Of a stretch of 64,000 nucleotides of DNA, positions 44,435-59,583 are shown piece after piece. A model generated the notes under the pieces. It saw nothing but the letters and a program-made list of their open reading frames with translations, did not search any database and was not told where the DNA came from. This DNA comes from Eubacteriales bacterium (GTDB lineage Bacteria; Bacillota; Clostridia; Lachnospirales; Lachnospiraceae), in assembly GCA_030524175.1 (NCBI GenBank), contig JAUNHC010000004.1, positions 62,001 to 126,000 of the forward strand, given 5' to 3'. Every line of letters starts with the position of its first letter. Position 1 is the first letter of the stretch. The translations under genes and the position numbers were made by a program.

Positions 44435-45415
44435 TTGAAAAGCATACAGGAAGATATTAAAACAGGAAATTTTAAACAGGCATATCTTTTTTATGGAGAA
44501 GAATCATATTTGAAGCAGCAGTACAAGCATAATCTCATAAAAGCGCTAAACCCGGAGGGTGATACCATGAATTACACCCATTATGAGGGTAAGAATATCG
44601 ACGTGAAAGGACTTATTGATCTGTGTGAGACCATGCCCTTTTTTGCCGACCGCCGTGTCCTGCTTTTGGAGGATACCGGATTTTTTAAGAATAAATGCGA
44701 TGAACTGGCAGATTATATGAAAACTCTGCCGGAATATGTGTGTATGGTTTTTGCAGAGACAGAAGTGGATAAGCGAAGCCGGATGTACAAGGCTGTGAAA
44801 TCCATCGGACGTGTGACAGAGTTTGTAAAGCAGGACGAGAAAACTCTCATGCGCTGGGCCGCGGGAATCCTGGGAAAAGAGGGGAAGAAGATCACCCAGA
44901 GGGATATGGAGCTTCTGCTCACTAAGACAGGCACCGATATGGGCAATCTCCGCATGGAACTGGAAAAATTGATCACCTATACCTACGGACGTGATATAGT
45001 GTCATCCTCTGACATAGAGGCTGTGTGCACCACCCAGACCACAAACAAGATTTTTGACATGGTCCGGGCAGTTACAGAAAAGAACCAGAAAAAGGCATTG
45101 GATCTTTACTATGACCTTTTAACCCTCAGAGAGCCGCCCATGAGAATCCTTTTCCTCCTGGCAAAACAATTCCGGCAGCTGCTTCTGACAAAGAAAATGT
45201 CAGCCGAAGGAGCCTCTCAAAATGATATTGCCTCCAGGCTTGGAGTTCCCTCCTTTGTTGTGCGGAACATTGCATCCTGCGCCCGTTCCTATTCAACAGA
45301 AACCCTGGAACAAGCTGTGGCAGACTTCGTAGACGCCGAAGAAGCTGTGAAGACAGGAAGACTGGGAGATGTATTGAGTGTGGAACTGTTGATCGTGAAG
45401 TATAGTGCTGGTTAG
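44435..45415 (+). CDS. holA: DNA polymerase III delta subunit
   Basis: HolA opens the sliding clamp as part of the clamp loader. The 326-residue protein starts at TTG 44435 with GGAG seven bases upstream. Family hallmarks are QAYLFYGEESYLKQQY at the N-terminus, an AAA+-like fold, and the C-terminal AKQFRQLLLTKKMSAEGASQ collar region. In Clostridia holA is normally followed by rpsT; here 13.8 kb including a catabolic island and two repeat elements intervene. Confidence 0.93.
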   Translation: MKSIQEDIKTGNFKQAYLFYGEESYLKQQYKHNLIKALNPEGDTMNYTHYEGKNIDVKGLIDLCETMPFFADRRVLLLEDTGFFKNKCDELADYMKTLPEYVCMVFAETEVDKRSRMYKAVKSIGRVTEFVKQDEKTLMRWAAGILGKEGKKITQRDMELLLTKTGTDMGNLRMELEKLITYTYGRDIVSSSDIEAVCTTQTTNKIFDMVRAVTEKNQKKALDLYYDLLTLREPPMRILFLLAKQFRQLLLTKKMSAEGASQNDIASRLGVPSFVVRNIASCARSYSTETLEQAVADFVDAEEAVKTGRLGDVLSVELLIVKYSAG

Positions 45416-45423
45416 TGCGAGAG

Positions 45424-45848
45424 GGGGTTGCGAGAGGGGCAAGCTCAGAGTTGCGAAGCCCGCATGCCCCTCTCGCGCTCTCCCCTGTTGGGCACGTTGG
45501 GTTGTGGTGTGTTAGAGTGTGTTGGAGGGGACTAAATGAGGAATGAGGGGGTGGAGTATGAATTGAGATTGTTGTGCCGGAAGGGTTGCGGCCATTTTTG
45601 CATTGTATTTTTTGTCGAACTCTGATGCAGGGGAGTATAGCACAGGGAGATGCTGCTTATTTTTCTCATGCACGGACAGTATACCTCAAGGAACCTCTAT
45701 TCATGCACGTCTAGCGCACTTCAAAAAAAACCCGGTAAATTCGCAAAGTTTCACCCCGATCATTATGCGCAGCCACCACCTGCGTGCCCAACAGGGGAGA
45801 GCTCGAGAGGGGCATGCGGGCTTCGCAACTCTGAGCTTGCCCCTCTCG
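45424..45848. mobile_element. Palindrome-flanked repeat element, copy 1
   Basis: The element has 66-bp inverted termini at 45431-45496 and 45783-45848 with one mismatch. Each arm is itself a hairpin (CGAGAGGGGCA 45431-45441 with TGCCCCTCTCG 45465-45475). The core of ~290 bases is about three-quarters identical to copy 2 at 58664-59087. GGGGTTG precedes the left arm in both. No transposase is encoded; a short frame starting LIFLMHGQY is present in both copies but the two diverge in frame after FHP. It lies just after the holA stop. Confidence 0.85.
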
Positions 45849-45942
45849 TATCAGTAGTGGGTGCGATAACTTGCACCATATGGTAAAGCATTCAAAGGCA
45901 TTGCAATCCCAAATAATAATTATCCATATAGTATAAATAAAG

Positions 45943-45976
45943 GTTGTTGTACCGCAGAGTACAGCAGCTTTTTTTG
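45943..45976 (+). terminator. Terminator downstream of repeat element copy 1
   Basis: GTTGTTGTAC pairs with GTACAGCAGC (G-T wobbles) around CGCAGA and is followed by a T7 run. The rest of 45849-46127 holds the promoter region of the next operon. Confidence 0.75.
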
Positions 45977-46015
45977 TTGGGGCGGAGGGGGAGTAATAAT
46001 TTTGAACTTTTTAGT

Positions 46016-46056
46016 AATGTGAACACATTCAGTATGACAATTGCCTTTGATATAAT
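46016..46056 (+). promoter_or_regulatory. Promoter of the catabolic island with palindromic site
   Basis: TATAAT (46051-46056) has only a weak -35 (TTCAGT, 46028-46033, 17-base spacing). The perfect palindrome AATGTG-AA-CACATT (46016-46029) abuts it. A poor -35 next to a dyad suggests activator control, for example by the YesN-type regulator in the same cluster. Confidence 0.5.
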
Positions 46057-46127
46057 GGGATTACAACAAGGAAAGCGGCGCGCGGCAGTTTTGTATTGGG
46101 ATTAGTGATTGAAAAGGAGAAGGAAAT

Positions 46128-47402
46128 ATGATGAAAAAAAGTATCTGGAAGAAAGCAGTTGCTGTGGGGGCGGCTGCGGCTATGACAATCAGTGTAGGTG
46201 GTTCTTTGGTTTGGGCTGAGGGAGGAGATAAGAAGACGATCAATATATTTACATTGTATTCTGAGTCAAATTCTGATGCAGGGGCAGCGTATTTCAGGGA
46301 AGCTCTGGCAGAAGCCCAGGAGGCATTCCCGGATTATGAACTTGTCCATGAGACAGCAGATGTGGAAACTTATAAGACAAAGATCAAGGCCATGGTGGCA
46401 GCGGATGAAGTGCCTGATATTTTCTTTGCATGGGGTGCCGGATTTGTAAAACCTTTTGTGGATGCAGGGAAGGTTATGGCGTTGGATGAGTATATGGATG
46501 AGGAAACAAATTCACGGCTGCTGGCAGGCGCCAATGATGAGTTTTTATTTGACGGAAAAACCTATGGACTGACTTCTTATAAGTGGATTGGTGCGCTGTA
46601 CTGTAATACGGAGTTGTTTGAGAAATATGAAGTTAAGATACCGGAAACCTATGAGGAATTAATGACTGCATGTAAAACCTTCAGGGAAGCAGGCTTGAAT
46701 CCAATGGTTGTGGGCATGAAGGATAAGTGGCCGGGGCAGCAGTATCTGAACGAATTTACTGTGCAGCTGGCTGGTTCAGAAGAAACGAATAAGATGGCAT
46801 CCAAGGAAACAAGCTTTGACAATGAATACCTTGCAAAGGCGGCTCAGCTTACAAAGGATTTAGTGGATGCAGGTGCATTTAATGACGGAGCCCTCGGACT
46901 TACAAGGGACGAGTCTGAGGCTGCATTCCTTCAGGGAGAAGTTCCGATGAATTTCACCGGCTCTTGGTTTTCAGAGCTGACATCGGGAGAAAACAGTAAG
47001 GTTGACGGAAAAGTCACAGCTGTACGGTTCCCGGTTGTGGAGGAGTGCAAGGATGTAAATAATTTCTTTGGGGGTGCGATCAATGGCCTTTGTGTGGCTG
47101 CGGATTGTGAATATCCTGAGGAAACCGCAGAAGTATGTAAGTTCCTGGCAGAGCATTCAGCTATTGCAGACGGCGGGCTTGTGACATGGGAAGTACCGGA
47201 GGAGGCGAAAGCCAGTGTACACTCTCTGAATCAGGAAATTATCGAGTTTTCAAAGGATGCAGCCGGGTATTCTCTGGCCTGGGATACTCTTCTTGAGGCA
47301 GCCGATGCGCAGGAGTGGCTGAACCTTGTGGCACAGCTGTTCGGCGGTGAGGTTGAAAGCGGCGAAGCATTTGCAAAAACGTTACAGGATACTATTGGGT
47401 AA
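46128..47402 (+). CDS. Family 1 (CUT1) sugar-binding protein
   Basis: The 424-residue protein has a signal peptide (MMKKSIWKKAVAVGAAAAMT..., probable cleavage after VWA) and a two-lobe extracellular domain (IPETYEELMTACKTFREAGL, GEVPMNFTGSWF) of the MalE/SBP_bac_1 class. No lipobox cysteine is present, which is unusual for a Gram-positive binding protein; it may be released or retained through uncleaved signal or contact with the permeases. ATG 46128 follows AAGGAGAAGG. It opens the catabolic operon and is followed by an intercistronic hairpin. The ligand is unknown; candidates are oligosaccharides, polyols or sugar acids. Confidence 0.87.
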   Translation: MMKKSIWKKAVAVGAAAAMTISVGGSLVWAEGGDKKTINIFTLYSESNSDAGAAYFREALAEAQEAFPDYELVHETADVETYKTKIKAMVAADEVPDIFFAWGAGFVKPFVDAGKVMALDEYMDEETNSRLLAGANDEFLFDGKTYGLTSYKWIGALYCNTELFEKYEVKIPETYEELMTACKTFREAGLNPMVVGMKDKWPGQQYLNEFTVQLAGSEETNKMASKETSFDNEYLAKAAQLTKDLVDAGAFNDGALGLTRDESEAAFLQGEVPMNFTGSWFSELTSGENSKVDGKVTAVRFPVVEECKDVNNFFGGAINGLCVAADCEYPEETAEVCKFLAEHSAIADGGLVTWEVPEEAKASVHSLNQEIIEFSKDAAGYSLAWDTLLEAADAQEWLNLVAQLFGGEVESGEAFAKTLQDTIG

Positions 47403-47421
47403 AAGGATATGAAGGATAGAA

Positions 47422-47448
47422 CGGCCCTGGTCATTTTGGCCAGGGCTG
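47422..47448 (+). terminator. Intercistronic hairpin after the binding-protein gene
   Basis: CGGCCCTGG pairs with CCAGGGCTG (one wobble) around a nine-base loop, without a T run. Such hairpins stabilise the upstream message or reduce read-through, so binding protein exceeds permease. Confidence 0.6.
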
Positions 47449-47511
47449 TATCTGAATTATCCGTAATACATAAATATCCGGGGAAAGCCGTGAGTGACAG
47501 GAGAGTAATTT

Positions 47512-48405
47512 ATGAATCGGATTTTATCAAGCAAAAAAAATATTCTGGTATTTATGCTTCCGGCAAGCCTGATATTTTTGAGTGTCATGATCATTCCCAT
47601 CGTGGCCACAACATATTACAGTACACTTGACTGGGACGGAATAGGCAGAGGAACTTTTGTGGGGCTGGAGAATTATTTTAAGATCATGGGGAAAAATGCT
47701 TACAATTTCTGGCCTTCGGTGGGGCACTCTTTTATTGTACTGCTGCTTTCTGTTCTGGTACAGGAACCAATAGCCATGGTACTGGCTCTTATTTTGGGAA
47801 AAGGAATTAAGGGGGAGAGTTTTTTCAGAACCACCTTCTTTATTCCGATGGTAGTGTCCACAGTTGTCATTGCCCAGCTTTTTATCAAAGTATACCATCC
47901 GCAGTACGGACTTTTAAATGTGTTTCTGGACACTCTTGGTCTGGATTTTCTCAGGCAGGAATGGCTGGCAGACAAAGGCACAGCCCTTTGGGCAGTTTTT
48001 ATACCGCTTATCTGGCAGTATATCGGTTATCATATGCTTCTTTATTATGGAGCTATTAAATCAGTTTCCACTGAGGTGGTAGAGGCTGCAAAAATAGACG
48101 GAGCTAATTATTTTCAGATTTCCACAAGAATTCTGATTCCTCTTATAACTCCGGTGATTGAAACATGTGTTGTAATTGCTGTTGTAGGAAGTTTGAAGAC
48201 CTTTGATTTTGTATATATCATGACGAACGGAGGCCCGCTGGGGGCTACGGATGTACCCAGTACAGTAATGTATGACTTACTGATCAAGAGAAATCTCTAT
48301 GGGCAAGGAAGTATGGTTGCTGTATTTATTGTCGCAGAATGTCTGTTGTTCACGGTTGTACTGCAGACGGTATTCAAAAAATTAAGGAATACAGGCGGGG
48401 AGTAG
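47512..48405 (+). CDS. CUT1 ABC permease, MalF-like
   Basis: The 297-residue protein has six membrane helices and the EAA loop 'VEAAKIDGANYFQISTRIL' (about residues 192-210) followed by LIPLITPVIE. ATG 47512 follows AGGAGAG. It is ten bases from the second permease and forms a heterodimer with it. No ATPase is encoded in the cluster, so a shared MsmK/MsiK-type ATPase elsewhere must energise transport, as is common for CUT1 systems in Firmicutes. Confidence 0.9.
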   Translation: MNRILSSKKNILVFMLPASLIFLSVMIIPIVATTYYSTLDWDGIGRGTFVGLENYFKIMGKNAYNFWPSVGHSFIVLLLSVLVQEPIAMVLALILGKGIKGESFFRTTFFIPMVVSTVVIAQLFIKVYHPQYGLLNVFLDTLGLDFLRQEWLADKGTALWAVFIPLIWQYIGYHMLLYYGAIKSVSTEVVEAAKIDGANYFQISTRILIPLITPVIETCVVIAVVGSLKTFDFVYIMTNGGPLGATDVPSTVMYDLLIKRNLYGQGSMVAVFIVAECLLFTVVLQTVFKKLRNTGGE

Positions 48406-48415
48406 GAGGGACAGA

Positions 48416-49246
48416 ATGAAAAAAAGGACATTGACCAACACTTTGACATATGCTTTTTTGTTGATTTTTACGGTGATCCAGGTGTATCCATTGTTTTGGC
48501 TGTTTACCTTTTCCCTTAAAAATAATGATGAAATATTCGGAGGGAATGTGGCAGGGCTGCCGGCTCATTGGCTTTGGGGAAATTATGGGAAGGCCTGGGT
48601 GGATGGTAATGTGGGACGGTATTTTATCAATACTCTGGTGGTTACGCTGCTGACAATCGGAGGGACTGTAGTCTTTGCTGCTATGGCGGGATATGCGATT
48701 TCCCGCATGAAATGGAAATTTCAGAGGACAGCCCTCACAATATTTCTTTTGGGTCTGATGATTCCCATTCATGCAGCACTGCTCCCATTGTTTGTAGCCT
48801 ATGTGAAAATAAAAATATTAAATACATATATATGCCTGGTGATTCCATATATCGCATTTGCCCTCCCTCTTGCCATTTATATTTATGTGGGATTTACGGA
48901 AGGAATACCGAAAGAGATGGAGGAGAGTGCCTTTCTTGACGGATGTAATATATACAGATGTTTTTTCCGTATTATTCTTCCGCTGCTAAAACCAGTGTTT
49001 GCCACAGTTACAATACTTACTTTTATCAATACATGGAATGAATTCATGCTGGCATCAATTTTTATGACAAAAAGTGAGATGAAGACACTGACTGTAGGTA
49101 TCCAGGAGATGGTGGGGCAATTTACCACAAGCTGGGGCCCCATTGGGGCGGCCCTTGTGATGGCCTCCATACCCACTCTTTTTATGTATATTGTCATGAG
49201 TAAGGAAGTCCAGAAAAGTTTTATCACAGGAGCCGTCAAAGGGTGA
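48416..49246 (+). CDS. CUT1 ABC permease, MalG-like
   Basis: The 276-residue protein has six helices and the EAA loop 'MEESAFLDGCNIYRCFFRII' (about residues 168-187) followed by LPLLKPVFATV. ATG 48416 lies behind GGAGGGACAG. It is the second half of the permease pair. It is followed within 70 bases by the first dehydrogenase gene, so transport and catabolism share a transcript. Confidence 0.9.
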   Translation: MKKRTLTNTLTYAFLLIFTVIQVYPLFWLFTFSLKNNDEIFGGNVAGLPAHWLWGNYGKAWVDGNVGRYFINTLVVTLLTIGGTVVFAAMAGYAISRMKWKFQRTALTIFLLGLMIPIHAALLPLFVAYVKIKILNTYICLVIPYIAFALPLAIYIYVGFTEGIPKEMEESAFLDGCNIYRCFFRIILPLLKPVFATVTILTFINTWNEFMLASIFMTKSEMKTLTVGIQEMVGQFTTSWGPIGAALVMASIPTLFMYIVMSKEVQKSFITGAVKG

Positions 49247-49312
49247 GCATATGCGGGAAAACAGAAGGATCATGCGGAACATCATTGGGATTGTACCCGG
49301 GAGGAAATCATA

Positions 49313-50515
49313 ATGTGGGAAGAAATAAAGGAAGCGACAGGAACAAAGGAAGTAATAGGACAGCGGGGAAAGCTGGCGGTTTTCCGCGGCCCGTATGACA
49401 TAACCATTGAGGAGTACAAGCTCCCTGAGGTGAAGGAGGACGGGATTTTAATAAAAGTGGAGGCAGCATCCATCTGCGGTTCAGACGGTCATGGAGTTAA
49501 GATGACTCCGGATGAACCATGTACAATAGGACATGAGTTTGCAGGCAGGATCATTGCTATGGGAGAGAAGGCTAATGAAAGCATTTACAGTTTCGGAGGT
49601 CCTCTGAAGGTTGGGGACAGGATTGTACCGTATCCCTGGATTACCTGCGGTACTTGTCCTGACTGTCTGGAACAGGGTAACGGAGTTTGTATGATATGTG
49701 AAAATGGATTCTGTTACGGAGGACGGGACACCATGGGGACGAGCAAGATTACTGCATCGGTGGAGGATGCCCCCCATTTTAAAGGGGGATTTGCAGAATA
49801 TGTGTATATTTTTCCGGGAACCTATGTGTGGAAGATTCCGGAGGATATGCCCAGCACCATAGCAAGTCTGCTGGATCCTCTGGCGGTTGCTGTCCGGGCA
49901 GTAGAAATGGCGCAGACAGAAGCCGGGGTGCCGGGGGAATCCCTCAACACCAGCACGCAGGCGGTAGTGATAGGGGCCGGGGCTGTGGGGATACTGACTG
50001 CTATGATTCTGAAAATCCAGGGCTGTCAAAAGGTGATAGTCACAGACTTTAAAAAGGAAAAGCTTCAGCTTGCCAAAGAAATTTCCGGCTGTGATGAGGT
50101 TCTGGATTCCAGTACCATGAGCCTGGAGGAGAGAATTTCCAAAATCCGTACATTAACTGGCCAAGGCCCCCATTTGGTGATCCAGTGTGCAAATTCTACA
50201 CGTGCATCCATAGAAGGTCTGCAGATGGTGAGAAAACTGGGTACTTACATTGAGGTAGGAGTGCCCTTTGGATTTGGTGAGGAGTTTAAGATTGACCTGC
50301 CAAGGCTGGCATTCAGCAAGAATGTGAGAATAAACAGTCTTGTGGCCAACAGTCCGAGAGTGTTTCATAAGGCATTTCATCTGCTGGAACGCCACACAAA
50401 GTATCCTTTTTTCAAACTGTTTACCCATAAATTTTACTGTTTGGAAGATCTGCTTCCCACCATAGGGAAAATGGGTGATTCTGATTATATTAAAGGTATT
50501 ATGATTTTAAAATAG
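49313..50515 (+). CDS. Zinc-dependent medium-chain dehydrogenase 1
   Basis: The 400-residue protein is an MDR (alcohol/polyol) dehydrogenase. Catalytic zinc residues are in SICGSDGHG and GHEFAG; the structural-zinc cysteines are in CGTCPDCLEQGNGVC; the nucleotide fold has VVIGAGAVGILTA. It is longer than usual (about 350) because of an N-terminal extension of about 20 residues and an insert near 140-170. ATG 49313 follows GGGAGGAAATC. It probably oxidises a polyol or sugar acid hydroxyl with NAD(P). Substrate unknown. Confidence 0.87.
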   Translation: MWEEIKEATGTKEVIGQRGKLAVFRGPYDITIEEYKLPEVKEDGILIKVEAASICGSDGHGVKMTPDEPCTIGHEFAGRIIAMGEKANESIYSFGGPLKVGDRIVPYPWITCGTCPDCLEQGNGVCMICENGFCYGGRDTMGTSKITASVEDAPHFKGGFAEYVYIFPGTYVWKIPEDMPSTIASLLDPLAVAVRAVEMAQTEAGVPGESLNTSTQAVVIGAGAVGILTAMILKIQGCQKVIVTDFKKEKLQLAKEISGCDEVLDSSTMSLEERISKIRTLTGQGPHLVIQCANSTRASIEGLQMVRKLGTYIEVGVPFGFGEEFKIDLPRLAFSKNVRINSLVANSPRVFHKAFHLLERHTKYPFFKLFTHKFYCLEDLLPTIGKMGDSDYIKGIMILK

Positions 50516-50532
50516 GACAGGAGAGTGAGCTT

Positions 50533-51579
50533 ATGAAAGCATTACTGTATACAGAGGCTGGAAGAGAAAATGGAAAGATAACTGACATTCCCTATCCGGT
50601 TTGCGGAGATCATCAGGTGATCGTGAAAGTGATGTGCTGCGGTATCTGTATCGGCGTGGAACAGGGACATGATACTACAGGCACATCTATGTCGGTGTAT
50701 CCTGTAGTACCGGGCCATGAATTTGCCGGATATGTTTATGAGACAGGTGCAAAGGTGAAATCATGTAAAGTAGGAGACAGAGTAACTGTGGACAACACGG
50801 TACCTTGCCAGACTTGCTATTACTGTAAAAGACATGACCCTATTCACTGCCGTAATTTAGGCTCCCTTGGACATAATATAAACGGAGGCATGGCAGAGTA
50901 TGTCCTGGTGAGTGCAGAGAAGGTTTACCATATCCCGGACAACATTTCCTTCGAGGAGGCCAGTATGACAGAACCGGTTGCCTGTTGTGTCCACGCAATG
51001 GATCAGATAGATATCCGCTGCGGTGATGAGGTTCTGGTCATGGGAGCAGGTCCTCAGGGGCTGATCCTGGCACAGCTCGCCAGAAATTCAGGTGCAGCCA
51101 GGGTAATCGTGTGTGCATCCACACAGTGTAAGCTTGACATATTGGAAAAATTGGGAATAGAGACGGTGCTTATGGACAGACAGGATTATTCTAAGCACGA
51201 AAAAATACTGAAAGAGAAATTCCCTCTTGGATTTGACAGAGCTATAGATGCCACAGGCGCTTCGGAGGTGGTTTATTCTCTTCCAAAGCTGATGAAGATG
51301 GGCGGGAAAATACTGGGATATGGTTATTATCATGAAGAGCATGCAGATTTGCGTTTTCCGTTTTCTGATTTCTGGGACCGTGAACTGAGTTATGTTACAC
51401 CTCTGAGTCAGGTTGGGGACTTCGACAGAGCTGTCCTTGCCATAGCAGAGGGAAAAGTAAACACGAAAGTGCTGATCAGTGATGAATTTAGTCTGGATGA
51501 TTATTTTAAAGCGCTGGACTTCAATATTCAGGACAGAAATGCAGTCAAAGTCTTGATCCATCCCAACAGAGAGGAATAA
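50533..51579 (+). CDS. Zinc-dependent medium-chain dehydrogenase 2
   Basis: The 348-residue protein has the MDR pattern: MCCGICIGVEQGHD (catalytic Cys), PGHEFAG, structural cysteines CQTCYYCKRHDPIHC, and the fold VLVMGAGPQGLILAQ. Length is typical of sorbitol or threonine dehydrogenases. In the catalytic site the usual CGTD/CGSD is CGICIGVE, so the residue following the zinc cysteine differs from most polyol dehydrogenases. Two distinct dehydrogenases in one operon suggest two oxidation or reduction steps or an epimerisation through a keto intermediate. Confidence 0.87.
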   Translation: MKALLYTEAGRENGKITDIPYPVCGDHQVIVKVMCCGICIGVEQGHDTTGTSMSVYPVVPGHEFAGYVYETGAKVKSCKVGDRVTVDNTVPCQTCYYCKRHDPIHCRNLGSLGHNINGGMAEYVLVSAEKVYHIPDNISFEEASMTEPVACCVHAMDQIDIRCGDEVLVMGAGPQGLILAQLARNSGAARVIVCASTQCKLDILEKLGIETVLMDRQDYSKHEKILKEKFPLGFDRAIDATGASEVVYSLPKLMKMGGKILGYGYYHEEHADLRFPFSDFWDRELSYVTPLSQVGDFDRAVLAIAEGKVNTKVLISDEFSLDDYFKALDFNIQDRNAVKVLIHPNREE

Positions 51580-51626
51580 GTGGCTAAGCAAGCTGCGGCA
51601 TGAATGGTATGGATCATGTTGTAAGA

Positions 51627-51664
51627 AAGGGCGCCTGCAACCGGGTTGGTGGCAGACGCCTTTT
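51627..51664 (+). terminator. Attenuator-like hairpin before the YesM-type kinase gene
   Basis: GGCG-CCTGC-AACC pairs with TGGT-GGCAG-ACGCC and is followed by TTTT. It could separate the metabolic genes from the regulatory genes, lowering expression of the latter. Confidence 0.65.
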
Positions 51665-51689
51665 AGGAATGACAGAAGGGAGCAGCAGA

Positions 51690-53465
51690 ATGGACATAGT
51701 AAGAAAGAAAATCAGAATTAAATTAAAGAAGTTTAAAAGTTTGCCCTTCAGCAGACAGATTCTGGGATATTATATGTTGCTTCTTGTGATCACCATATCC
51801 TTCTGCAGTTTTTTGTATATCTATATTATAAAGTCTTCAGTCTCACGTATGGAGGACAGCGCATTAGAGAAGGCACTTCAGACAGTGGAGTCAAGTTTTG
51901 CGGCAACCATTGACAGGGCAGACGAATATTCTAAAATTATTGGATTTGATACAAGTGTACAGAAATCCCTGGGAAAATCGGAACAGGGGAATAAAAACCT
52001 GATATCAGTGGATCAGACGGTGATGAGGCTGATCATAAGCAGCACATTTGTAGATTCAGTTTATATTTTTGATAATTTTGGAAATATGTATTCAGCAGCC
52101 AATGACTCAAGAAGGGAGAAAGTTTCCAATCCAATTACAGCGGCATCCTGGTACCGGGAGGTTCTGGAGCGTAAAGGCGGATTTATAGTCAGAATGAATT
52201 CAGGGGAATTTTTCGAACAGAATGCCGGGGGCGGAAAGTATATATCACTGATCCGTATCATCAATGACCTTGACAGTCAGAAGTCTGTAGGCACCATTAT
52301 TTTAAATATATCCTATGGGGAAATACGCAGAGCCTGTTCTCTGGCCCAGAAGGAAAATGATGTCATAATAGAAATTCTTGATCAGGATGATCAGATTGTG
52401 ATTTATGAAGGTGAAGACGGATTCGGCAGAGAGCTTACGGAGCGTTATGAAAAAGGTGAGAACTATTTCTCCTTTGAGAAGGGCAGTGAAAATTATAAAG
52501 CAGCTTTTTTGGGTGACAGGAAGACAGGATGGAAAATATGGGGGATCAGGAAGAACGAGCCCGGAATGGGGGAATTTAAATCTTTTGGAATTTGGACATT
52601 TGTTATTCTGGCACTCAATGCCGTACTCCTGAGTGTGGGGGCGATCATTATCACTAAATTTATTGAGGTTCCGGTTCAGCATTTGCTGCAGTCTATGAAT
52701 CAAGTGGAAAAAAAGGAATTCAGCCCGGTGCCTGTAGTGGAGGCAAACGCAGAGCTTAATCAGCTTCAGGAAGGATATAACTGTATGGTCACTGTGCTGA
52801 ATGAATTATTTCAGAAGGTATTGCGGGAGCAAAAAATGAAACGGAAATATGAACTGGATGTGCTGCACGCACAGATTAAACCGCACTTTCTGTACAATAC
52901 CTTTGATTCAGTAAGTGCCCTGGCGCTTATGGACCGTTCGGAAGATGTTTTTATCATGATGCAGGCATTGGGGAAATATTACAGGACCAGTCTGCATAAA
53001 GGGCAGGAAATTATTACCATTGAGGAAGAAATTAAAATTATCTATAATTACCTGATCATACAGAAATATCGTTATGAAGATGTCTTTGAAGTCTCCTATG
53101 AGATTGACGAATTGATGAAAAAGTACAGGGTCTTAAAGCTTGTTCTGCAGCCTTTTGTGGAGAATGCAATTTACCATGGACTGAAAACCCTTGGTACCTG
53201 CGGACATATAACGATCCGCGTATGTAATGACGGTGAATTTGTACTTCTGCAGGTGGAGGATGACGGTGCGGGCATGAGCGAGGAAAAAGTGCGGGAAATC
53301 ATGGAGGGAACCGGTGTCGGGGAAGATAAAAGTTTCGGAGTCCATGGGACGATAGAACGTATTGCTCTTTTTTACGGAAGAGATGATCTTGTGCGGATTG
53401 ACAGTGAAGCCGGGGCAGGAACCATTATTAATGTGAGGGTGCCCAAGGAGATAGAGGACCATTGA
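51690..53465 (+). CDS. YesM-type sensor histidine kinase
   Basis: The 591-residue kinase starts at ATG 51690 (GGGAG upstream). It has a first helix (about 27-48), an extracellular Cache-type domain (about 50-290), a second helix (about 305-325), a HAMP linker, and the His_kinase domain with His399 in HAQIKPHFLYNTFDS, followed by a HATPase (LQPFVENAIYHGL, VEDDGAGMSEE). This is the class that senses sugars or binding protein-sugar complexes and works with AraC-type regulators. It sits between the dehydrogenases and the regulator, so it should control this island. Confidence 0.9.
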   Translation: MDIVRKKIRIKLKKFKSLPFSRQILGYYMLLLVITISFCSFLYIYIIKSSVSRMEDSALEKALQTVESSFAATIDRADEYSKIIGFDTSVQKSLGKSEQGNKNLISVDQTVMRLIISSTFVDSVYIFDNFGNMYSAANDSRREKVSNPITAASWYREVLERKGGFIVRMNSGEFFEQNAGGGKYISLIRIINDLDSQKSVGTIILNISYGEIRRACSLAQKENDVIIEILDQDDQIVIYEGEDGFGRELTERYEKGENYFSFEKGSENYKAAFLGDRKTGWKIWGIRKNEPGMGEFKSFGIWTFVILALNAVLLSVGAIIITKFIEVPVQHLLQSMNQVEKKEFSPVPVVEANAELNQLQEGYNCMVTVLNELFQKVLREQKMKRKYELDVLHAQIKPHFLYNTFDSVSALALMDRSEDVFIMMQALGKYYRTSLHKGQEIITIEEEIKIIYNYLIIQKYRYEDVFEVSYEIDELMKKYRVLKLVLQPFVENAIYHGLKTLGTCGHITIRVCNDGEFVLLQVEDDGAGMSEEKVREIMEGTGVGEDKSFGVHGTIERIALFYGRDDLVRIDSEAGAGTIINVRVPKEIEDH

Positions 53466-53480
53466 TGGGAGGTTGCTGAA

Positions 53481-55067
53481 ATGTTGAAGGTATTAGTGGT
53501 GGATGATGAGAAACTGGTCCGTCAGATGATTCTCAGATGTATTGACTGGACTGAACTTGGGCTGGAAATTGTGGGGGAGGCTTCCGGTTCTGAAGAGGGA
53601 TTGAAGATGGCAGCAGAACTGCATCCCAATATAGTTTTTACGGATATCCGTATGCCTGTGATGGATGGCCTGGAGTTTGCCAGGAGGATCACAGAACGGT
53701 ACCCGGATACAAAAATTATTATCCTTTCAGGACATGATGAGTTTGAATATGCAAGTGAGGGGATTAAAATAGGTGTTTTTGACTATCTGCTGAAGCCTAT
53801 TGACCAGGAAGAAATCCGTGATGCAGCAGTTAAAGTAAGAGATGCCATTTTGCAGGAGCAGGATTATCAACAGTCTATCAGGAGGCTGAAACAGGAACTT
53901 TCGGCCAATGCCGGCTATATCAGGGAAAAACAGCTGGCAGCACTGGTGCGCAGCCAGAAGCCGGATTCTCTCCTGGACAGCCTGGAATATCTGGATGTGC
54001 GCTTGAGAAAGGATATTTTTCAAGTGGCCCTTGTAGAAGTTCTGTTTGACAACAGCAGCGGCATGGATGAAGAGAACAAATTGCTGCTTAAGATGAAGTG
54101 TCAGGAACTCATGCAGGAATACTTTAAAAAAGATGAACACATATATGTGATCAGCAGCGGAATGCAGTCTATTATGATTTTGAATAACCAGATGAAAGAG
54201 GAGTTTTTTGAAATCTGTGATATTTTAAAGGAGCATCTCATCAAACATACAAAATGCGGAATCTGTATAGGTGTGGGAGAAGCGTATACAGAGCTGGAAC
54301 AGCTGCATATTTCTTACAGAGAGGCAAAAGATGCTTTGAAATACAGATTCACTGCAGGAAAGAACCAGACCATCAGCTTCCGGGATATATATCCGTATTA
54401 TGATACAGAGATAAATATGAGTGAAGAAAAAATCCATGAATTTGGTTTTTCTATACGATCAGGTTCCCTTAACGGAACTTTGGAATTACTGGATGAAACC
54501 TTTGAAAAAATGAGGATCATGAATTTTTCAAAGGATGAGACGTTACTTTTTGCACTGAGATTTGTCATGGAGGTTATGACAATTCTTCTGGAGCTGAAAA
54601 TCCATCCGGAGGATATGCCAAAGGGGCAAAGCCAGATGATACAGGAAATATTTTCTTTATCAAGCCTTGATGAAATCCGGGGATATCTGGAACAGCTTAC
54701 CCGGGAGGCATCCCGGATGATTTCCCGTGAGCTTGGGGATAAGGAGAAGGATATGGTGAGAAAGGTGACGGATCATCTTCAGGAACATTACCAAGAGGAA
54801 GAAATTTCTTTATCTTCGTTAGCCAAGGATTTCTACACCAATTCCAGTTATCTCAGCCGCGTGTTTAAAGAAAAAACAGGAAAGACTTTCAGCGGATATT
54901 TGTTTGAACTGCGTATGGGAAAGGCAATGAAGCTTTTTGCCCAGTCAGATTTAAAATCATACGAGGTAGCTGAGAGGGTTGGAATCAAGGACCCCCATTA
55001 TTTCAGTGTCTGCTTTAAGAAACATACAGGCATGTCAGTGAGTGAATACAAAAAAAGCTTACATTAA
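53481..55067 (+). CDS. YesN-type response regulator with AraC helix-turn-helix
   Basis: The 528-residue regulator has a receiver domain with Asp55 in IVFTDIRMPVMDG, a central ~280-residue region, and a C-terminal AraC domain with two helix-turn-helix motifs (SLSSLAKDFYTNSSYLSRVF and SYEVAERVGIKDPHYFSVCF). ATG 53481 lies behind GGGAGG, 15 bases after the kinase stop. It most likely activates the island promoter at 46016-46056. Family knowledge: YesMN pairs control carbohydrate ABC operons in Firmicutes. Confidence 0.92.
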   Translation: MLKVLVVDDEKLVRQMILRCIDWTELGLEIVGEASGSEEGLKMAAELHPNIVFTDIRMPVMDGLEFARRITERYPDTKIIILSGHDEFEYASEGIKIGVFDYLLKPIDQEEIRDAAVKVRDAILQEQDYQQSIRRLKQELSANAGYIREKQLAALVRSQKPDSLLDSLEYLDVRLRKDIFQVALVEVLFDNSSGMDEENKLLLKMKCQELMQEYFKKDEHIYVISSGMQSIMILNNQMKEEFFEICDILKEHLIKHTKCGICIGVGEAYTELEQLHISYREAKDALKYRFTAGKNQTISFRDIYPYYDTEINMSEEKIHEFGFSIRSGSLNGTLELLDETFEKMRIMNFSKDETLLFALRFVMEVMTILLELKIHPEDMPKGQSQMIQEIFSLSSLDEIRGYLEQLTREASRMISRELGDKEKDMVRKVTDHLQEHYQEEEISLSSLAKDFYTNSSYLSRVFKEKTGKTFSGYLFELRMGKAMKLFAQSDLKSYEVAERVGIKDPHYFSVCFKKHTGMSVSEYKKSLH

Positions 55068-55243
55068 GTGTCTGCCGGCCGAAATACATAAGTAAAAATA
55101 TTGAATCATTCAGTCATCTTAGCACATGTATTCTTCAAAAAGCTGTTGCTATAATGTAGGAAAATCAGAGGGAAAAATGTATGAAACTGCTGTACAGTTT
55201 ATTCTCTCCAGGCACTCAGAGAAAAATAGCAGGAGGAAATGAA

Positions 55244-56302
55244 ATGGATAAGATAAAGGTTCTGTTTGCAGCGGATTTTTCTATTACGAAAAAGGATATT
55301 CTGGATAATGCATATCTTTTTGAAAAGTATAATGCGCAAGTTGAGGTGGTGGACATTGATTTAGGCAATACGGAAGAAGAACGGGCGGCATACATATTAA
55401 AAATAGAGAAGGAAGGGCCGGGAAGCATACACACATCTCCGGAATTACTGGACAAGGTAAGAGATGCAGAAATACTGATCACTGATTTTGGGGCTGTCGG
55501 GAGAGACGTGATCGAGGCTGGAATCCATCTTAAACTTATCGGTGTGCTGAGAAGCGGAGTAGAGAATGTGGATACGCAGGCAGCTTCAGAGAGGAACATT
55601 CCTGTCATCAATGCTCCCGGAAGGGTGGCTGCAGCAGTTGCCGATTATACGGTGGGTATGATGATCGCTGAAGCGCGGAATATCTGCAGAAGCAGTCTTA
55701 CTGCCAACGGAGGAGCGTGGAAAATAAGATTTTCTAATTTTCCTTATTCCCATAACCTGGAAGGTAAGACTGTAGGCATAATTGGTTTTGGCGCCATCGG
55801 GCAGATGGTAGCGGCAAGACTGGTGCCGTTTGGAGTAAAACTGCTTACATATGAGCCGTACCTTCCCGTTGAAAAAATACGGGAAGCAGGGGCACAGCCG
55901 GTACCCCTGGAGGAATTACTCCGTGTATCGGATTACGTTACCATTCATGCCAGGCTATGCAGGGATACCGAGAAAATGATGGGGAGAGAACAGTTTGCTT
56001 TGATGAAACCAACAGCGTTTTTCATTAATACAGCCAGGGCAGGGCTGGTGGACGAAGTGGCTCTGACAGAAGTTTTGGCGGAGCATAAAATAGGGGGTGC
56101 AGCTCTGGATGTGTTTGCCAGGGAACCGATCTCTGCAGATGATCCCCTTCTGAAGCTGGATAATGTAACCCTGACGCCGCATCTTGCCGGAACTACCAGC
56201 AATGTGGGGCACAATTCTATAGCTGTGATACTGAAGGATTTGGATTGTTATTTTAATGGAAAGCCTATGAGAAATATTAAAAATAAGGTTACCGGCTGGT
56301 GA
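55244..56302 (+). CDS. D-2-hydroxyacid dehydrogenase, phosphoglycerate-dehydrogenase-like
   Basis: The 352-residue enzyme has the NAD motif GFGAIG (181-186) and the catalytic set Arg265 (NTARAGLVDE), Glu294 (FAREPI) and His313 (TPHLAG). It lacks a C-terminal ACT domain, so it is not a regulated serine-pathway enzyme. ATG 55244 with AGGAGG seven bases upstream is preferred; ATG 55181 is possible. It is the first gene after the regulators and leads the kinase and aldolase genes. A sugar acid or its phosphate is the likely substrate, which would be unusual for a plain polyol pathway. Confidence 0.87.
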   Translation: MDKIKVLFAADFSITKKDILDNAYLFEKYNAQVEVVDIDLGNTEEERAAYILKIEKEGPGSIHTSPELLDKVRDAEILITDFGAVGRDVIEAGIHLKLIGVLRSGVENVDTQAASERNIPVINAPGRVAAAVADYTVGMMIAEARNICRSSLTANGGAWKIRFSNFPYSHNLEGKTVGIIGFGAIGQMVAARLVPFGVKLLTYEPYLPVEKIREAGAQPVPLEELLRVSDYVTIHARLCRDTEKMMGREQFALMKPTAFFINTARAGLVDEVALTEVLAEHKIGGAALDVFAREPISADDPLLKLDNVTLTPHLAGTTSNVGHNSIAVILKDLDCYFNGKPMRNIKNKVTGW

Positions 56303-56306
56303 CCGG

Positions 56307-57782
56307 ATGAAATGGCAGGGTTGTGATAACATGGATACAGTTATAGTTTTAGATTTTGGAACGTCAAAGGTACGCGCCTGCCTTGCAAACCTTGAAGACG
56401 GGCGGATTGTAAAACTGTCTTCAAAGGCTAATTCCTGGTTCCGGCCCCGGAGCGGATGGGCGGAGATGGATGCAGAGTCCATTTGGAATCTTGCCCAGGA
56501 AGTTATGGAGGGACTTCTCAGGCAGTTGGACGGGAGTGAGACAGTATATGGTATTGGATTTTCGTTTTTTGGTGATTCTCTCATCCTTTTGGATGAGAAC
56601 TATGAAGTGCTGTACCCTATGATCATGGCTTTTGATACAAGGGCCCAGGAGGAAGCACAGTATATAAGGGAAGCGGCAGGCAGTCATATATTCAGGGAGA
56701 TTACAGGCGGTGAGTGCCTGTCTATGCTGGTTCCCGCTAAACTTCTTTGGATAAAGAACCATTGTCCCCAGATATATAAAAACACCAGATATGTAATGAA
56801 TATTCAAGAGTTTATTTTGAATCGTATGGGCCTTCCGGTATGTACAGACTATACACTGGCTAACAGAAAAATGCTCTTGGATATCCGGCAGAAGGAATGG
56901 TCACTTTTATTATTGAAGCTGTTGTGTATTGACAGAGAGACTGTGGGTAAAAGAATAGAGGAATCCACTTGCCGGGTAGGAGAAATTGGGCATTTCGGCA
57001 GAGTTAAACTTCCGTGGAGGCTTCCTGTCATCCTGGGCGCCCATGATTCAGAATGCGGGTTTCTGGGAATGGGATTGAATCCCCAAGGGGCACGGGTGCT
57101 GGGAAATGTATCAGGCACCTATGAGATAGCAGGCTGCTTTACAGATGAGTATATGGATTTGCCGGAGCAGGCAAATGTGGAGCTGGGCTGCGGGCTTATG
57201 AGGGACAGCATGAGTCTTAACGGTTCAAGCATTGCAGGATCGTATATCAACTGGTTTCGGGAACTGACAGGGAATCAACCCCCAAATTTCTTTGCAGAGG
57301 CAGAGAAGTGTGTGAAGTATGACGGCAAGGGTGAGATATTTTTCCTTGCAGACAATGACAAGGCAGAGTTTCATATACATGGACTTTCACCGGTAACAAA
57401 AAGCATACAACTTTTTCAGGCTGTAACAGAAGGAATCACCTTTCGGCTGAAAGAAATCGCAGATGGTATGGAGGAACTCAACGGCTATCCGTTTTCCGGG
57501 ATTTTTTGCGGAGGAGGAGGGACCTCATCTGAGAAATGGCTTCAGTTTAAGGCAGACTTATTTCAAAGTCCTGTAAGTCTGGTGCAGCAGGAAGAAGTAT
57601 CCTGTGCGGGCGCTGCCATGATAACGGCAGTGGGAGTGGGCTATTATTCTGATTTTGATGCTGCAATAAAAAAGATGGTGAAAATTAAAAAGAAGTTGAT
57701 ACCAAATGAGGAAACTTCAGAGAGATACCAGGAGAAGTTTCGTATTTACCAGAAAATCATGAAAGAGCAAAGGAGAAGATGA
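56307..57782 (+). CDS. FGGY-family carbohydrate kinase
   Basis: The ~490-residue kinase has the N-terminal phosphate motif VIVLDFGTSKVRA, the central adenosine region, and the catalytic Asp in ILGAHDSECGFLGMG, where the HDS form resembles rhamnulokinase and fuculokinase types rather than xylulokinase (GGD). The C-terminal FGGY_C domain has IFCGGGGTSSEKWLQ. The start is ATG 56307 or ATG 56331; neither has a strong ribosome site. The stop overlaps the aldolase ATG. It should phosphorylate a ketose or keto sugar acid before aldol cleavage. Confidence 0.88.
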   Translation: MKWQGCDNMDTVIVLDFGTSKVRACLANLEDGRIVKLSSKANSWFRPRSGWAEMDAESIWNLAQEVMEGLLRQLDGSETVYGIGFSFFGDSLILLDENYEVLYPMIMAFDTRAQEEAQYIREAAGSHIFREITGGECLSMLVPAKLLWIKNHCPQIYKNTRYVMNIQEFILNRMGLPVCTDYTLANRKMLLDIRQKEWSLLLLKLLCIDRETVGKRIEESTCRVGEIGHFGRVKLPWRLPVILGAHDSECGFLGMGLNPQGARVLGNVSGTYEIAGCFTDEYMDLPEQANVELGCGLMRDSMSLNGSSIAGSYINWFRELTGNQPPNFFAEAEKCVKYDGKGEIFFLADNDKAEFHIHGLSPVTKSIQLFQAVTEGITFRLKEIADGMEELNGYPFSGIFCGGGGTSSEKWLQFKADLFQSPVSLVQQEEVSCAGAAMITAVGVGYYSDFDAAIKKMVKIKKKLIPNEETSERYQEKFRIYQKIMKEQRRR

Positions 57783-58663
57783 AAATGGGCTTAGTGACTT
57801 TGAAGGAAATATTAAGTGAAAGTATAGAAAAAAAATATGCAGTAGGAGCGTTTGATACCCTGGATGATAATTTCACAGAAGCGATTATCGAAGCAGCAGA
57901 GGAAGAGGGGCTGCCCGTGATTCTTATGATACCTAATTTTTTCTGGGAGAAAAATGATCTGTCGTTTTATTTCACAAGACTGTTAGACCGGTGCCGGAGA
58001 GCAACTGTGCCTGTATGTCTTCATCTTGACCACGGCCGTTCCTTTGAGGATGTGATGAAAGCTATTCACGGAGGCTGTACTTCTGTTATGTTTGACGGTT
58101 CTGCACTCCCTATAGAAGAGAATATTGCCGTCACCAGAAAAGTTGTTGAGGCGGCCCATGCCTGCGGCGTGAGCGTTGAGGCTGAAATCGGTCATGTGGC
58201 CAGCCCGGAAGGGGAACTGCAGGCAAGTGAAGCAGATGAAACCATGTATACCAGCCCGGAAGATGCAGCTCACTTTGTGCAGCAGACACAGGTGGATGCA
58301 CTGGCCGTTGCAGTAGGAACCGTACATGGAATATACAAAGGAACCCCGAAAATTGACACCCGCAGACTGGATGAAATACGCAGCAGAGTATCCATTCCCC
58401 TTGTCCTTCACGGCGGCTCCGGCCTGCCGGAAGAAGAATTCCGGGCCGCCATCGCCCACGGCATTAATAAAGTAAACTTCTTCACAGGCCTCTCCCTGGA
58501 AGCCGTAAAAGCCATCAGGCAGACATTAGATGATGCCCCAACCGGAAAAGTTCACTACATTGAGCTAAAAGAAGCCTCTCACACGGCCGTAAAAAATACC
58601 ATCAAACACCAAATGAAAATATTTGGGACTCTTCCCTTTAACCGGAAATTGCTTGTCCAGTAA
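57779..58663 (+). CDS. Class II aldolase, fructose-bisphosphate/tagatose-bisphosphate family
   Basis: The 294-residue protein has the class II features: catalytic Asp84 and zinc ligand His85 in LHLDHGRS, the block VEAEIGHVASPEGE, His183 in GTVHGIYKG, and His211 in LVLHGGSG. It resembles the GatY/KbaY/FbaA group. ATG 57779 overlaps the kinase stop; ATG 57785 (MGLVTLKEIL) has better spacing from GGAG. It would cleave the phosphorylated product to a triose phosphate and a second fragment, linking the island to glycolysis. Repeat element copy 2 follows directly after its stop. Confidence 0.9.
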   Translation: MKMGLVTLKEILSESIEKKYAVGAFDTLDDNFTEAIIEAAEEEGLPVILMIPNFFWEKNDLSFYFTRLLDRCRRATVPVCLHLDHGRSFEDVMKAIHGGCTSVMFDGSALPIEENIAVTRKVVEAAHACGVSVEAEIGHVASPEGELQASEADETMYTSPEDAAHFVQQTQVDALAVAVGTVHGIYKGTPKIDTRRLDEIRSRVSIPLVLHGGSGLPEEEFRAAIAHGINKVNFFTGLSLEAVKAIRQTLDDAPTGKVHYIELKEASHTAVKNTIKHQMKIFGTLPFNRKLLVQ

Positions 58664-59087
58664 GGGGTTGCGAGAGGGGCAAGCTCAGAGTTGCGAAGCC
58701 CGCATGCCCCTCTCGCGCTCTCCCCTGTTGGGCACGCTGGGCTGTGGTTTACCAGAGGGTGTTGGAGGGGACTAGATGTGGGAATGAGAAGATGGAGTAT
58801 GAAGAGAGGCCGCTGTGTTGGAGAAGACAGCGGTTATTTTTGTTTTGTATTTTTTTGAACTCTGATGCAAGGAGAACATAGCTCAGGGAGGTGATGCTTA
58901 TTTTTCTCATGCACGGACAGTATATCTCAAGGAAGCTCTATTCGTGTAGCTCCAGCGTACATCAAGAAAGCTGCGGTAAATTCGTAAAGTTTCACCCAAT
59001 TCCTCTGCGCACCCACCACCTGCGTGCCCAACAGGGGAGAGCTCGAGAGGGGCATGCGGGCTTCGCAACTCTGAGCTTGCCCTCTCG
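58664..59087. mobile_element. Palindrome-flanked repeat element, copy 2
   Basis: Inverted termini lie at 58671-58736 and 59023-59087. The arms match copy 1 except for the missing C in the right arm. The core shares long blocks with copy 1 (CTTATTTTTCTCATGCACGG; GGTAAATTCG...AAAGTTTCACCC). Same orientation as copy 1. It begins with GGGGTTG directly after the aldolase stop. The frame beginning LIFLMHGQY diverges from that of copy 1 partway, so I do not call a gene. Confidence 0.85.
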
Positions 59088-59143: not shown

Positions 59144-59190
59144 TAAAAAAAAGAGAGCAATCACATGACGGTATGATTGCTCTCCCTTTT
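59144..59190 (-). terminator. Terminator of rpsT
   Basis: GAGAGCAATCA (59153-59163) and TGATTGCTCTC (59174-59184) form a perfect 11-bp stem. On the minus strand it is followed by a T9 run. Confidence 0.92.
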
Positions 59191-59225
59191 AATTATAAGC
59201 TTATAACTAAAAATTACCTCTTCTA

Positions 59226-59489
59226 TTAGCCGATGCTGTTAACGGCTTTTGTTAAACGAGAAACTTTTCTTGCGCAGTTGTTTTTGTGGTAAACTCCTTT
59301 AGAAGTTGCTTTGCTGATTGTGGAGATTGCATCTTTTAATGCGGTCTCAGCAACTGCCTTGTCGTTGTTTGCTACAGCAGCTTCAACTTTCTTGATGGAT
59401 GTCTTAACAGCAGATCTGACAGCTTTATTTCTCGCAGCTTTTGTCTTGTTTACTAAAATTCTTTTTTTAGCAGATTTGATATTAGCCAA
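59226..59489 (-). CDS. rpsT: 30S ribosomal protein S20
   Basis: The 87-residue protein begins at TTG 59489 (LANIKSAKKR, read as Met-Ala-Asn), with GGAGG eight bases upstream; an earlier frame start would translate the ribosome site. It is rich in Lys and Ala with two long helices, as in all S20 proteins. It binds 16S rRNA early in assembly. It is transcribed opposite to holA and gpr, as is common in Clostridia. Confidence 0.97.
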   Translation of the reverse strand: MANIKSAKKRILVNKTKAARNKAVRSAVKTSIKKVEAAVANNDKAVAETALKDAISTISKATSKGVYHKNNCARKVSRLTKAVNSIG

Positions 59490-59583
59490 TTCGTACACCT
59501 CCAATTCCAGGATAAAATAATAGTGAAAATATTTTCTTCTCCATAGAAACAGACACGGGCGTTTCTATGAAACATGCTTATAT

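Follow-up and report, generated by a model that had tools for sequence, protein, structure and literature searches.

The holA-rpsT Locus

The window, by which we mean the whole 64,000-nucleotide stretch of DNA analyzed, comes from a gut Blautia host and contains a 13.2-kb catabolic (sugar-use) cluster in the gap between holA and rpsT. This island encodes an ABC binding protein with two permeases, two zinc dehydrogenases, a YesM/YesN-type pair, a 2-hydroxyacid dehydrogenase, an FGGY kinase, and a class II aldolase. The annotation, from ABC transporter to aldolase, agrees with the cargo listed in the original prediction. The features of the locus are (., no strand assigned):

44435..45415, +, holA, left boundary gene (ORF; 59 of the 64 Blautia genomes have a match)
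45424..45848,., E1, copy 1 of the two-armed element (direct repeat of E2, inverted arms)
46128..47402, +, ABC sugar-binding protein (SBP_bac_1)
47512..48405, +, ABC permease 1
48416..49246, +, ABC permease 2
49313..50515, +, zinc-binding dehydrogenase 1
50533..51579, +, zinc-binding dehydrogenase 2
51600..53465, +, YesM-type sensor histidine kinase
53481..55067, +, YesN-type response regulator
55181..56302, +, 2-hydroxyacid dehydrogenase
56307..57782, +, FGGY carbohydrate kinase
57779..58663, +, class II aldolase
58664..59087,., E2, copy 2 of the two-armed element
59146..59192, -, terminator-like hairpin behind rpsT (by eye; also at the empty site in the 7 relatives inspected)
59226..59504, -, rpsT, right boundary gene

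It had been supposed that holA and rpsT are neighbors in most Clostridia. We compared 57 relative holA loci, having dropped one of 58 matches in which tblastn detected no holA. At 22 of them the rpsT gene is 72-316 bp downstream, at 11 it is further off in that direction, and at 10 it is immediately upstream of holA; at 14 it was not found within the stretch examined around holA. Given these positions, adjacency is common, yet not universal. The island was seen at holA-rpsT in none of the relatives examined, and in B. schinkii DSM 10518 the site is empty, with 87 bp between the two genes. Because it is empty in others too, comparison supports the view that the island is derived.

In a sample of 299 genomes of the family, with the best five candidates per genome scored, a match to the kinase at E <= 1e-100 was found in the host alone. 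Within the genus, the kinase and hydroxyacid dehydrogenase adjoin only in genome G010 (50% and 65% identity), whose full gene set is 29-74% identical to that of the island and differently ordered; both are also present in G015, at 32% and 44%.

Two Copies of a Palindrome-Flanked Element Bracket the Island

E1 starts 8 bases behind the holA stop codon and E2 follows the aldolase stop without a gap, so both lie where they had been predicted, directly behind these genes. The two copies have the same orientation, are 13,240 bp apart, and are 85.3% identical over 428 aligned columns, with a longest common exact run of 73 bp. Between the copies, 1 of 75 sites differs in the left arm, 2 of 69 in the right arm (together 3 of 144), and 61 of 285 in the interior. 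Since the interiors are 21% diverged, the pair is not recent. Inside each copy the arms are inverted and 97-98% complementary, forming terminal inverted repeats; the same inversion holds for all 20 close arm pairs described below. The four arms were scored with a covariance model, R1:

45429..45498, -, E1 left arm (its GTG-first strand is the - strand), 96.7 bits
45781..45850, +, E1 right arm, 98.5 bits
58669..58738, -, E2 left arm, 98.8 bits
59021..59089, +, E2 right arm, 88.0 bits

A 45-bp arm core with up to three mismatches occurs three times in the window and in none of 100 shuffles; the fourth arm was detected by the covariance model. The full element has only two copies in the host assembly (5.95 Mb, 119 contigs), and its interior has no match in 63 other genomes of the genus. 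By eye, terminator-like hairpins are visible in the element interiors, and no clear target duplication is seen at the flanks of E1, E2, or the copies in G015.

The Arms Belong to a Dispersed Blautia Family

Genome comparison reveals that the arms (about 70 nt) form a dispersed family, found in at least 31 of 64 Blautia genomes, a lower bound because Infernal was run with stricter filters and up to 79 candidates were scored per genome. In the family-wide sample of 299 genomes, only two Blautia genomes match and none of the 297 genomes of other genera, absences that are not absolute for the same reason (up to 16 candidates scored per genome); this search recovered 12 of the 13 host (G000) matches and 7 of 9 in G016. 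For closer study we used 108 arms (109 matches minus L221, a duplicate of the L145 arm) which come from 16 genomes among the 31 with arms, with a selection from each (G015 26, G017 13, G000 12). In the 20 close pairs the spacer between the arms measures 132-502 bp, which leaves no room for an island, and all have their hairpins outward; some of the 108 arms and of the 20 pairs represent the same site in related genomes. G015 contains 12 exact 68-bp arm copies with unrelated flanks.

Several known identities were considered for the arms and rejected. Phage carriage was set aside, as the exact core pattern was found in none of the viral contigs. A known RNA family was likewise dismissed: positions 40000-62000 of the window gave no Rfam match at gathering score, and six arm loci gave only sub-threshold matches, the best being MIR528 (33.3 bits, threshold 62). 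GCCCAAC fits the RYYYAAC box of attC sites; an integron attC-like site was considered for this reason and dropped, with no matching second box found by eye. We found no earlier description of the Blautia arm family among the matches listed by one open-access library, nor did that library yield anything on Blautia with triplex DNA or on the arm core sequence; the work listed there on palindromic repeats in Lachnospiraceae deals, judging by title, almost entirely with CRISPR or genome editing.

A Putative Triplex Clamped by a Pseudoknot

From 5' to 3', an arm consists of GTGSCC, a third purine strand, a turn of about 3 nt, the purine stem strand, CGGSC, a conserved loop, and the pyrimidine stem strand. 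GTGSCC pairs with GGSC as a pseudoknot, and the long second loop, which has 23 nt in E1's right arm and a similar length in the other arms shown, contains the conserved stretch CGGSCTTCGCAACTC. The order third strand, purine, pyrimidine on a single strand is that of class I triplexes. By sequence, we interpret the arm as a class I purine-motif intrastrand triplex clamped by a pseudoknot, and infer that it may form physically as such. In the E1 right arm the parts are:

45784..45789, +, pseudoknot strand GTGCCC (partner GGGC at 45818-45821), supported by covariation over arms
45794..45801, +, third purine strand, mirroring the purine strand of the stem, supported by mirror covariation over 53 distinct sequences
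45805..45814, +, purine stem strand (partner pyrimidine strand at 45838-45847), supported by Watson-Crick covariation

Among the 104 of 108 arms that fit the strict pattern, 91 combine GTGCCC with CGGGC and 13 combine GTGGCC with CGGCC, the second type being present in 7 of these 16 genomes. The other four depart from it; by eye, two with TGGCC and one with GTGCTC could still pair, and L171 does not fit. In alignment A5 (53 distinct arms) the pseudoknot helix is 99.1% paired, with double-sided change at just one of its four pairs. Covariation over the whole structure reaches 0.367 vs. 0.191 in shuffles, none of 500 being as high. The purine-pyrimidine stem forms 8.79 of 9 Watson-Crick pairs with its own partner (total 466 vs. 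408 for permuted partners, maximum 420); it is 83.2% paired in fixed columns because registers shift.

The third strand forms 8.11 of 9 triplets with its own stem vs. 6.93 (maximum 7.30) with permuted stems, and none of 2000 permutations reached the own-stem sum, in a scoring where registers were picked to maximize the score and permutations ignore relatedness. The same strands aligned in parallel still reach 7.11 of 9, and for the median arm 20% of other arms' stems match or beat its own. Where the stem base is A, the third strand has A in 84 cases, T in 13, G in 3, and C in 5; where it is G, the third strand has G in 333, A in 7, C in 2, and T in none. For T (13 opposite A, none opposite G) the Fisher p is 4e-9, and the pattern as a whole fits the purine-motif code (G.GC, A(T).AT).

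The closest parallel is with the bacterial repeats BoxC, PIT, and TM_ECO, described as intrastrand triplex repeats by Holder et al. (2015; PMC4666352). Like the Blautia arms, these are short, dispersed, G/C-rich, and intergenic, use a G.GC and A/T.AT code, have a 3-nt loop between purine tracts, and in some copies form close inverted pairs; the E. coli type A/B pairs recall the GTGCCC/GTGGCC pairs of some Blautia genomes. TM_ECO, however, is a class II repeat (pyrimidine-purine-third strand) of proteobacterial genomes whereas the Blautia arms are class I, and on reading the arms do not follow the TM_ECO/BoxC consensus Py-N3-6-Pu-N3-Pu. Instead of 1-6 nt, the second loop of the Blautia arm, with its 23 nt in E1, carries the conserved stretch and pairs with a GTGSCC clamp that lies outside the triplex; the published ITxF limits, 1-6 nt for both loops, would exclude the Blautia arms. 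The E. coli copies are more often upstream of ORFs, without strand bias, in contrast to the 3'-end bias on the hairpin side in Blautia. Earlier work on BoxC and PIT, as summarized by Holder et al., detected neither promoter nor terminator activity nor any effect in vivo (PMC4666352), a point against the explanation favored below.

The SAM-V and guanidine III riboswitches are H-type pseudoknots with triple helices, in which a loop strand likewise follows the stem. The Blautia arm differs from both in that its third strand is of the purine motif, antiparallel to the stem purines, and in being a dispersed repeat rather than a leader RNA.

Possible Recombination Between Arms

In G017, a GH31 gene lies between two same-orientation arms. 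G009 has one arm at this place, joined to the left flank of the first arm (93-95%) and the right flank of the second (99.2%), with the switch falling within ~20 nt of the arm's beginning. Recombination between the arms can account exactly for the loss of the GH31 gene; alternatively, the gene may have been inserted in G017 rather than deleted in G009. This is the one arm-by-arm junction that was worked out. A second locus, C50, speaks against arms as general cargo brackets, an idea that we rejected: its 9.3-kb operon is at the same place in G015, which lacks one of the two flanking arms, so a bracket can arise while the cargo stays where it is.

The original prediction, which saw in the island a cargo gained or lost through repeat recombination, proposed that the holA-rpsT interval of relatives be searched for strains with a single element. 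Within the stretch examined, arms were found around holA at none of the 57 relative loci, and thus no single-element intermediate was found. The proposal stands in part: the island is derived and G017/G009 offers a precedent, against which weigh the missing intermediate, interiors 21% apart, and C50. Repeats scattered over numerous places and unrelated to cargo would have spoken against it, and the dispersed arms, the short-spaced pairs, and C50 go some way in that direction.

The explanation that we favor, and hold to be somewhat probable, is that the arms are dispersed, structure-forming, recombinogenic repeats, and that same-orientation arms make the cargo between them deletable. Arms would disperse to positions between genes, favoring 3' ends, and a same-orientation pair would offer a short, near-identical substrate, recombination at which would delete the enclosed gene exactly and leave one arm. 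The structure itself may promote this recombination. BoxC, PIT, and TM_ECO repeats are associated with local genome variability by Holder et al., where the link of bacterial triplex repeats to genome instability is left without a clear mechanism (PMC4666352). The holA-rpsT island would be an old catabolic insertion, specific to its lineage and enclosed by two such elements; lying between them, it is predicted to be deletable, and may itself have moved via the arms.

Alternative Explanations

A serious competitor, which we nevertheless rather doubt, is ordinary horizontal transfer into a permissive gap between convergent genes, gene-end repeats having settled beside the island with no part in its acquisition. 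Such permissiveness is suggested by loci L034, L043, and L049, where unrelated cargo without arms lies between holA and rpsT, and the C50 arm sits behind an operon that stayed put. Placement of the arms also agrees. For each arm we scored the closest long ORF no more than 400 bp away, using longest-ORF guesses rather than gene-finder calls: on the hairpin side of the 108 arms, this ORF ends towards the arm in 57 cases, starts there in 27, and is absent in 24, a 3'-end bias (57 of the 84 arms with a near ORF, p 0.001), while the spacer side has no clear bias (44 vs. 33, p 0.25). Less easily reconciled with settling at gene ends is the duplication of the entire element, including an interior unmatched in 63 other genomes, and the E1 right arm faces the start of the first island gene, not a gene end.

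Placement could also suggest that the arm acts as RNA, namely as a 3'-UTR pseudoknot (a sense-strand pyrimidine-motif triple helix) that stabilizes or ends transcripts, its copies marking operon ends. Many arms lie directly behind stop codons, the interiors contain the terminator-like hairpins mentioned above, and the flank on the arm strand, rich in C and poor in G, could serve Rho. We consider this reading unlikely. The near ORF has its 5' end at the arm in 27 of 84 cases, the spacer side lacks a clear bias, and third-strand T found opposite A and never opposite G fits the purine motif, triplexes of which cannot form in RNA according to Holder et al. (PMC4666352). A strict 3'-UTR element was rejected, since the arms have a 3'-end bias only and two arms of G017 lie ~580 bp upstream of 16S genes.

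REP/BIME sequences, associated with RAYT transposases, are intergenic palindromes that occur singly or in inverted pairs with a bias to gene ends, as the Blautia arms do, and a REP has a conserved tetranucleotide 5' of its hairpin; the arms differ in being longer, with a pseudoknot and a mirror third strand. That a transposase acting in trans mobilizes the element as a MITE or REP/BIME, with the island as composite-element cargo, is quite improbable: the 12 exact copies with unrelated flanks in G015 and the inverted arms would fit, but the Y1 transposase (PF01797) has no match in the host (assembly 90.7% complete) and its presence does not follow that of the arms (matches in 20 of 31 arm-bearing vs. 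20 of 33 arm-free genomes), target duplication is not clear by eye, and the interior is not common to other genomes. On these Y1 results REP/RAYT identity was rejected, and the search for this transposase found no mobilizer.

Implications for Blautia

Returning to the recombinogenic repeats that we favor, we tentatively suggest, while granting that it may well prove otherwise, that the arms represent a new structural repeat class, a pseudoknot-clamped intrastrand DNA triplex, spread in Blautia and acting as a recombination node for losing, and perhaps gaining, sugar-use genes. G017 and G009 provide a natural before-and-after pair in which arm recombination would account for an absent glycoside hydrolase gene. 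If this is true, searches for triplexes would gain a long, clamped second-loop form that published limits exclude, and a link between non-B DNA and the gain and loss of diet-related genes would become directly testable.

A catabolic island between two repeat elements

Ten catabolic genes, confirmed by Pfam, lie between holA and rpsT in the host assembly (5.95 Mb, 119 contigs), flanked by two elements that each carry two arms, the arm being a repeat unit of about 70 nt. The window spans positions 62001-126000 of contig C45; the coordinates below are counted within the window.

44435-45415, holA, left boundary of the island
45424-45848, element E1, same orientation as E2
58664-59087, element E2, same orientation as E1
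59226-59504, minus strand, rpsT, right boundary of the island

The GC content of the island (44.5%) is close to that of its flanks (46.6 and 46.7%), and composition therefore says little. E1 and E2 differ at 3 of 144 positions in their arms and at 61 of 285 in their interiors. The duplication is old, and the arms have been either kept under constraint or converted. In the host genome the 282-bp interior matches only its two copies, apart from a weak 40-bp match in a neighbouring gene, and none of the 63 remaining genomes of the genus has a match to it. This 40-bp segment of E1 (45594-45633) shares 83% identity with a stretch of the binding-protein gene (46245-46284), probably by chance. By eye, a terminator-like hairpin with a T run is present at 45940-45980 (+ strand), upstream of the first island gene, possibly as a remnant of a former upstream gene.

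The holA-rpsT gap in relatives

The best named match of the window's holA is that of Blautia schinkii DSM 10518 (89% identity), where the site is empty: the gap measures 87 bp and contains a terminator-like hairpin (L026). On the strength of this holA match we take the genus to be Blautia. The same hairpin is found behind rpsT in the window, with the island, E1 and E2 sitting between it and the holA stop. A second B. schinkii record, strain MSK.6.26, has a gap of 714 bp (L042). Among 57 relative loci, rpsT is 72-316 bp downstream of holA in 22, directly upstream of it in 10, at a longer distance in 11, and absent from the examined stretch in 14. Three loci carry unrelated, arm-free cargo in the gap (L034:10978-14563, L043:3329-12551, L049:10972-15572); that of L043 and L049 resembles NAD-synthesis genes by eye. 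The empty site and this unrelated cargo suggest that the gap is a permissive insertion place, and the island in the window is derived. Another Blautia genome (G010) has a similar gene set at 29-74% identity and in a different order, with no arm match by covariance model search.

It had been proposed that recombination between E1 and E2 removes the island, leaving holA-element-rpsT. Such a deletion is plausible because the two elements share an exact run of 73 bp, their longest, available for recombination; the resulting allele was not seen, and the single-element relatives sought on this basis did not appear, as model searches placed arms around holA in none of the 57 relative loci. The comparisons cover one genome per species. 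As to its entry, the island may have integrated through recombination between element copies, or may have arrived by ordinary insertion, the element being copied afterwards.

Covariation and fold of the arm

Across arms of differing sequence we found three covarying relations: a stem, a pseudoknot and a mirror-related third strand. The purine:pyrimidine stem forms 8.79 of 9 pairs when each arm is given its own partner (466 in total; permuted partners give 408), and 83.2% of pairs in a fixed alignment of 53 distinct arms. The pseudoknot joins the segment before the third strand to the stem loop. Of 108 arms examined, 104 fit, 91 pairing GTGCCC with CGGGC and 13 pairing GTGGCC with CGGCC, the latter type occurring in 7 of 16 genomes. 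Its helix is 99.1% paired over the 53 distinct arms, and both sides change in only one of four pairs. The whole structure reaches a covariation score of 0.367, whereas shuffles give 0.191 and none of 500 scores as high; the score drops at every slide.

Ahead of the stem lies a purine tract that is a mirror image of the stem's purine strand at 8.11 of 9 positions, compared with 6.93 for permuted partners (maximum 7.30; these permutations ignore kinship among arms), 7.11 in parallel alignment and 6.10 after shuffling of the tract's own bases. The third strand of the median arm is fitted equally well or better by 20% of the stems of other arms, so the mirror signal resides in the set and not in each arm. 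The third base facing a stem A is A in 84 cases, T in 13, G in 3 and C in 5; the one facing a stem G is G in 333, A in 7, C in 2 and T in none. These deviations obey the purine-motif code. A mirror relation is expected from an intrastrand triple helix and not from Watson-Crick pairing, and we infer from these sequence patterns that the arm is an intrastrand triplex former. Its order, third strand-purine-pyrimidine, corresponds to class I in the scheme of PMC4666352. That paper describes the TM_ECO/BoxC repeats as intergenic, with inverted A/B pairs in five cases in E. coli K-12, and as associated with local genome variability by an unclear mechanism. It adds that previous studies of these elements had detected no promoter, terminator or in vivo effect.

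Distribution and placement of arms

With a covariance model built from the arm, matches were obtained in at least 31 of the 64 genomes of the genus, 16 of which supplied the arms analysed here. In a family-wide sample of 299 genomes only the host and G016, both of the genus, gave matches; the other 297 gave none among the best candidates scored per genome under stricter filters. In the Blautia genome G015, 12 of 26 arms consist of an identical 68-bp sequence set in unrelated flanks, and the single arm is therefore the dispersing unit there. At several G015 arms (L156, L157, L160, L161, L162, L164, L166) we noted by eye, immediately past the hairpin end, degraded partial copies of the hairpin 3' half. 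These often terminate once more in CCCCCTCGAA, as though slippage had copied them repeatedly.

Arms less than 700 bp apart form 20 pairs in 9 of the 16 genomes, some of them a single site shared by related genomes. Every one of the 20 pairs is inverted, with its hairpins facing outward and a spacer of 132-502 bp. The first 50 bp on the spacer side of the arm strand are C-rich and G-poor (34% C, 13% G, against 24% and 18% beyond 181 control ORF ends). On the hairpin side, gene 3' ends are favoured (57 against 27; 24 without a near ORF), and the spacer side has no clear such bias (44 against 33; 31 without). Two arms of the genome G017 (L202, L204) each precede a 16S rRNA gene by about 580 bp.

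Arms and local gene content

In G017 a GH31 gene is enclosed by two arms of the same orientation, spaced 1.7 kb apart. G009 has one arm, whose left flank matches that of the first G017 arm at 93-95% and whose right flank matches that of the second at 99.2%. Within this arm, informative positions switch in the first ~20 bases, scattered sites aside. By comparison, this single case of an exact arm x arm junction suggests arm recombination as a mechanism. The gene may have been gained in G017 instead, but G044 has an arm followed by the GH31 gene, an arrangement that favours loss in G009. At another site common to G017 and G009 (L199 and L230; flanks 95-97% identical), the inter-arm spacer is 215 vs 354 bp.

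At C50, a further contig site, a 9.3-kb operon lies between two direct arms. G015 has this operon at the equivalent position and lacks the arm behind the aldolase, which speaks against a general cargo role of arms. Elsewhere (L145/L221, G015:C18, vs L024), G015 is about 1.8 kb longer than the host genome between a DeoR-type gene and a shared arm, a further insertion or deletion beside an arm. Together, C50 and the G017/G009 case indicate that brackets can form when an arm inserts, and that recombination between the arms can then delete what the bracket contains.
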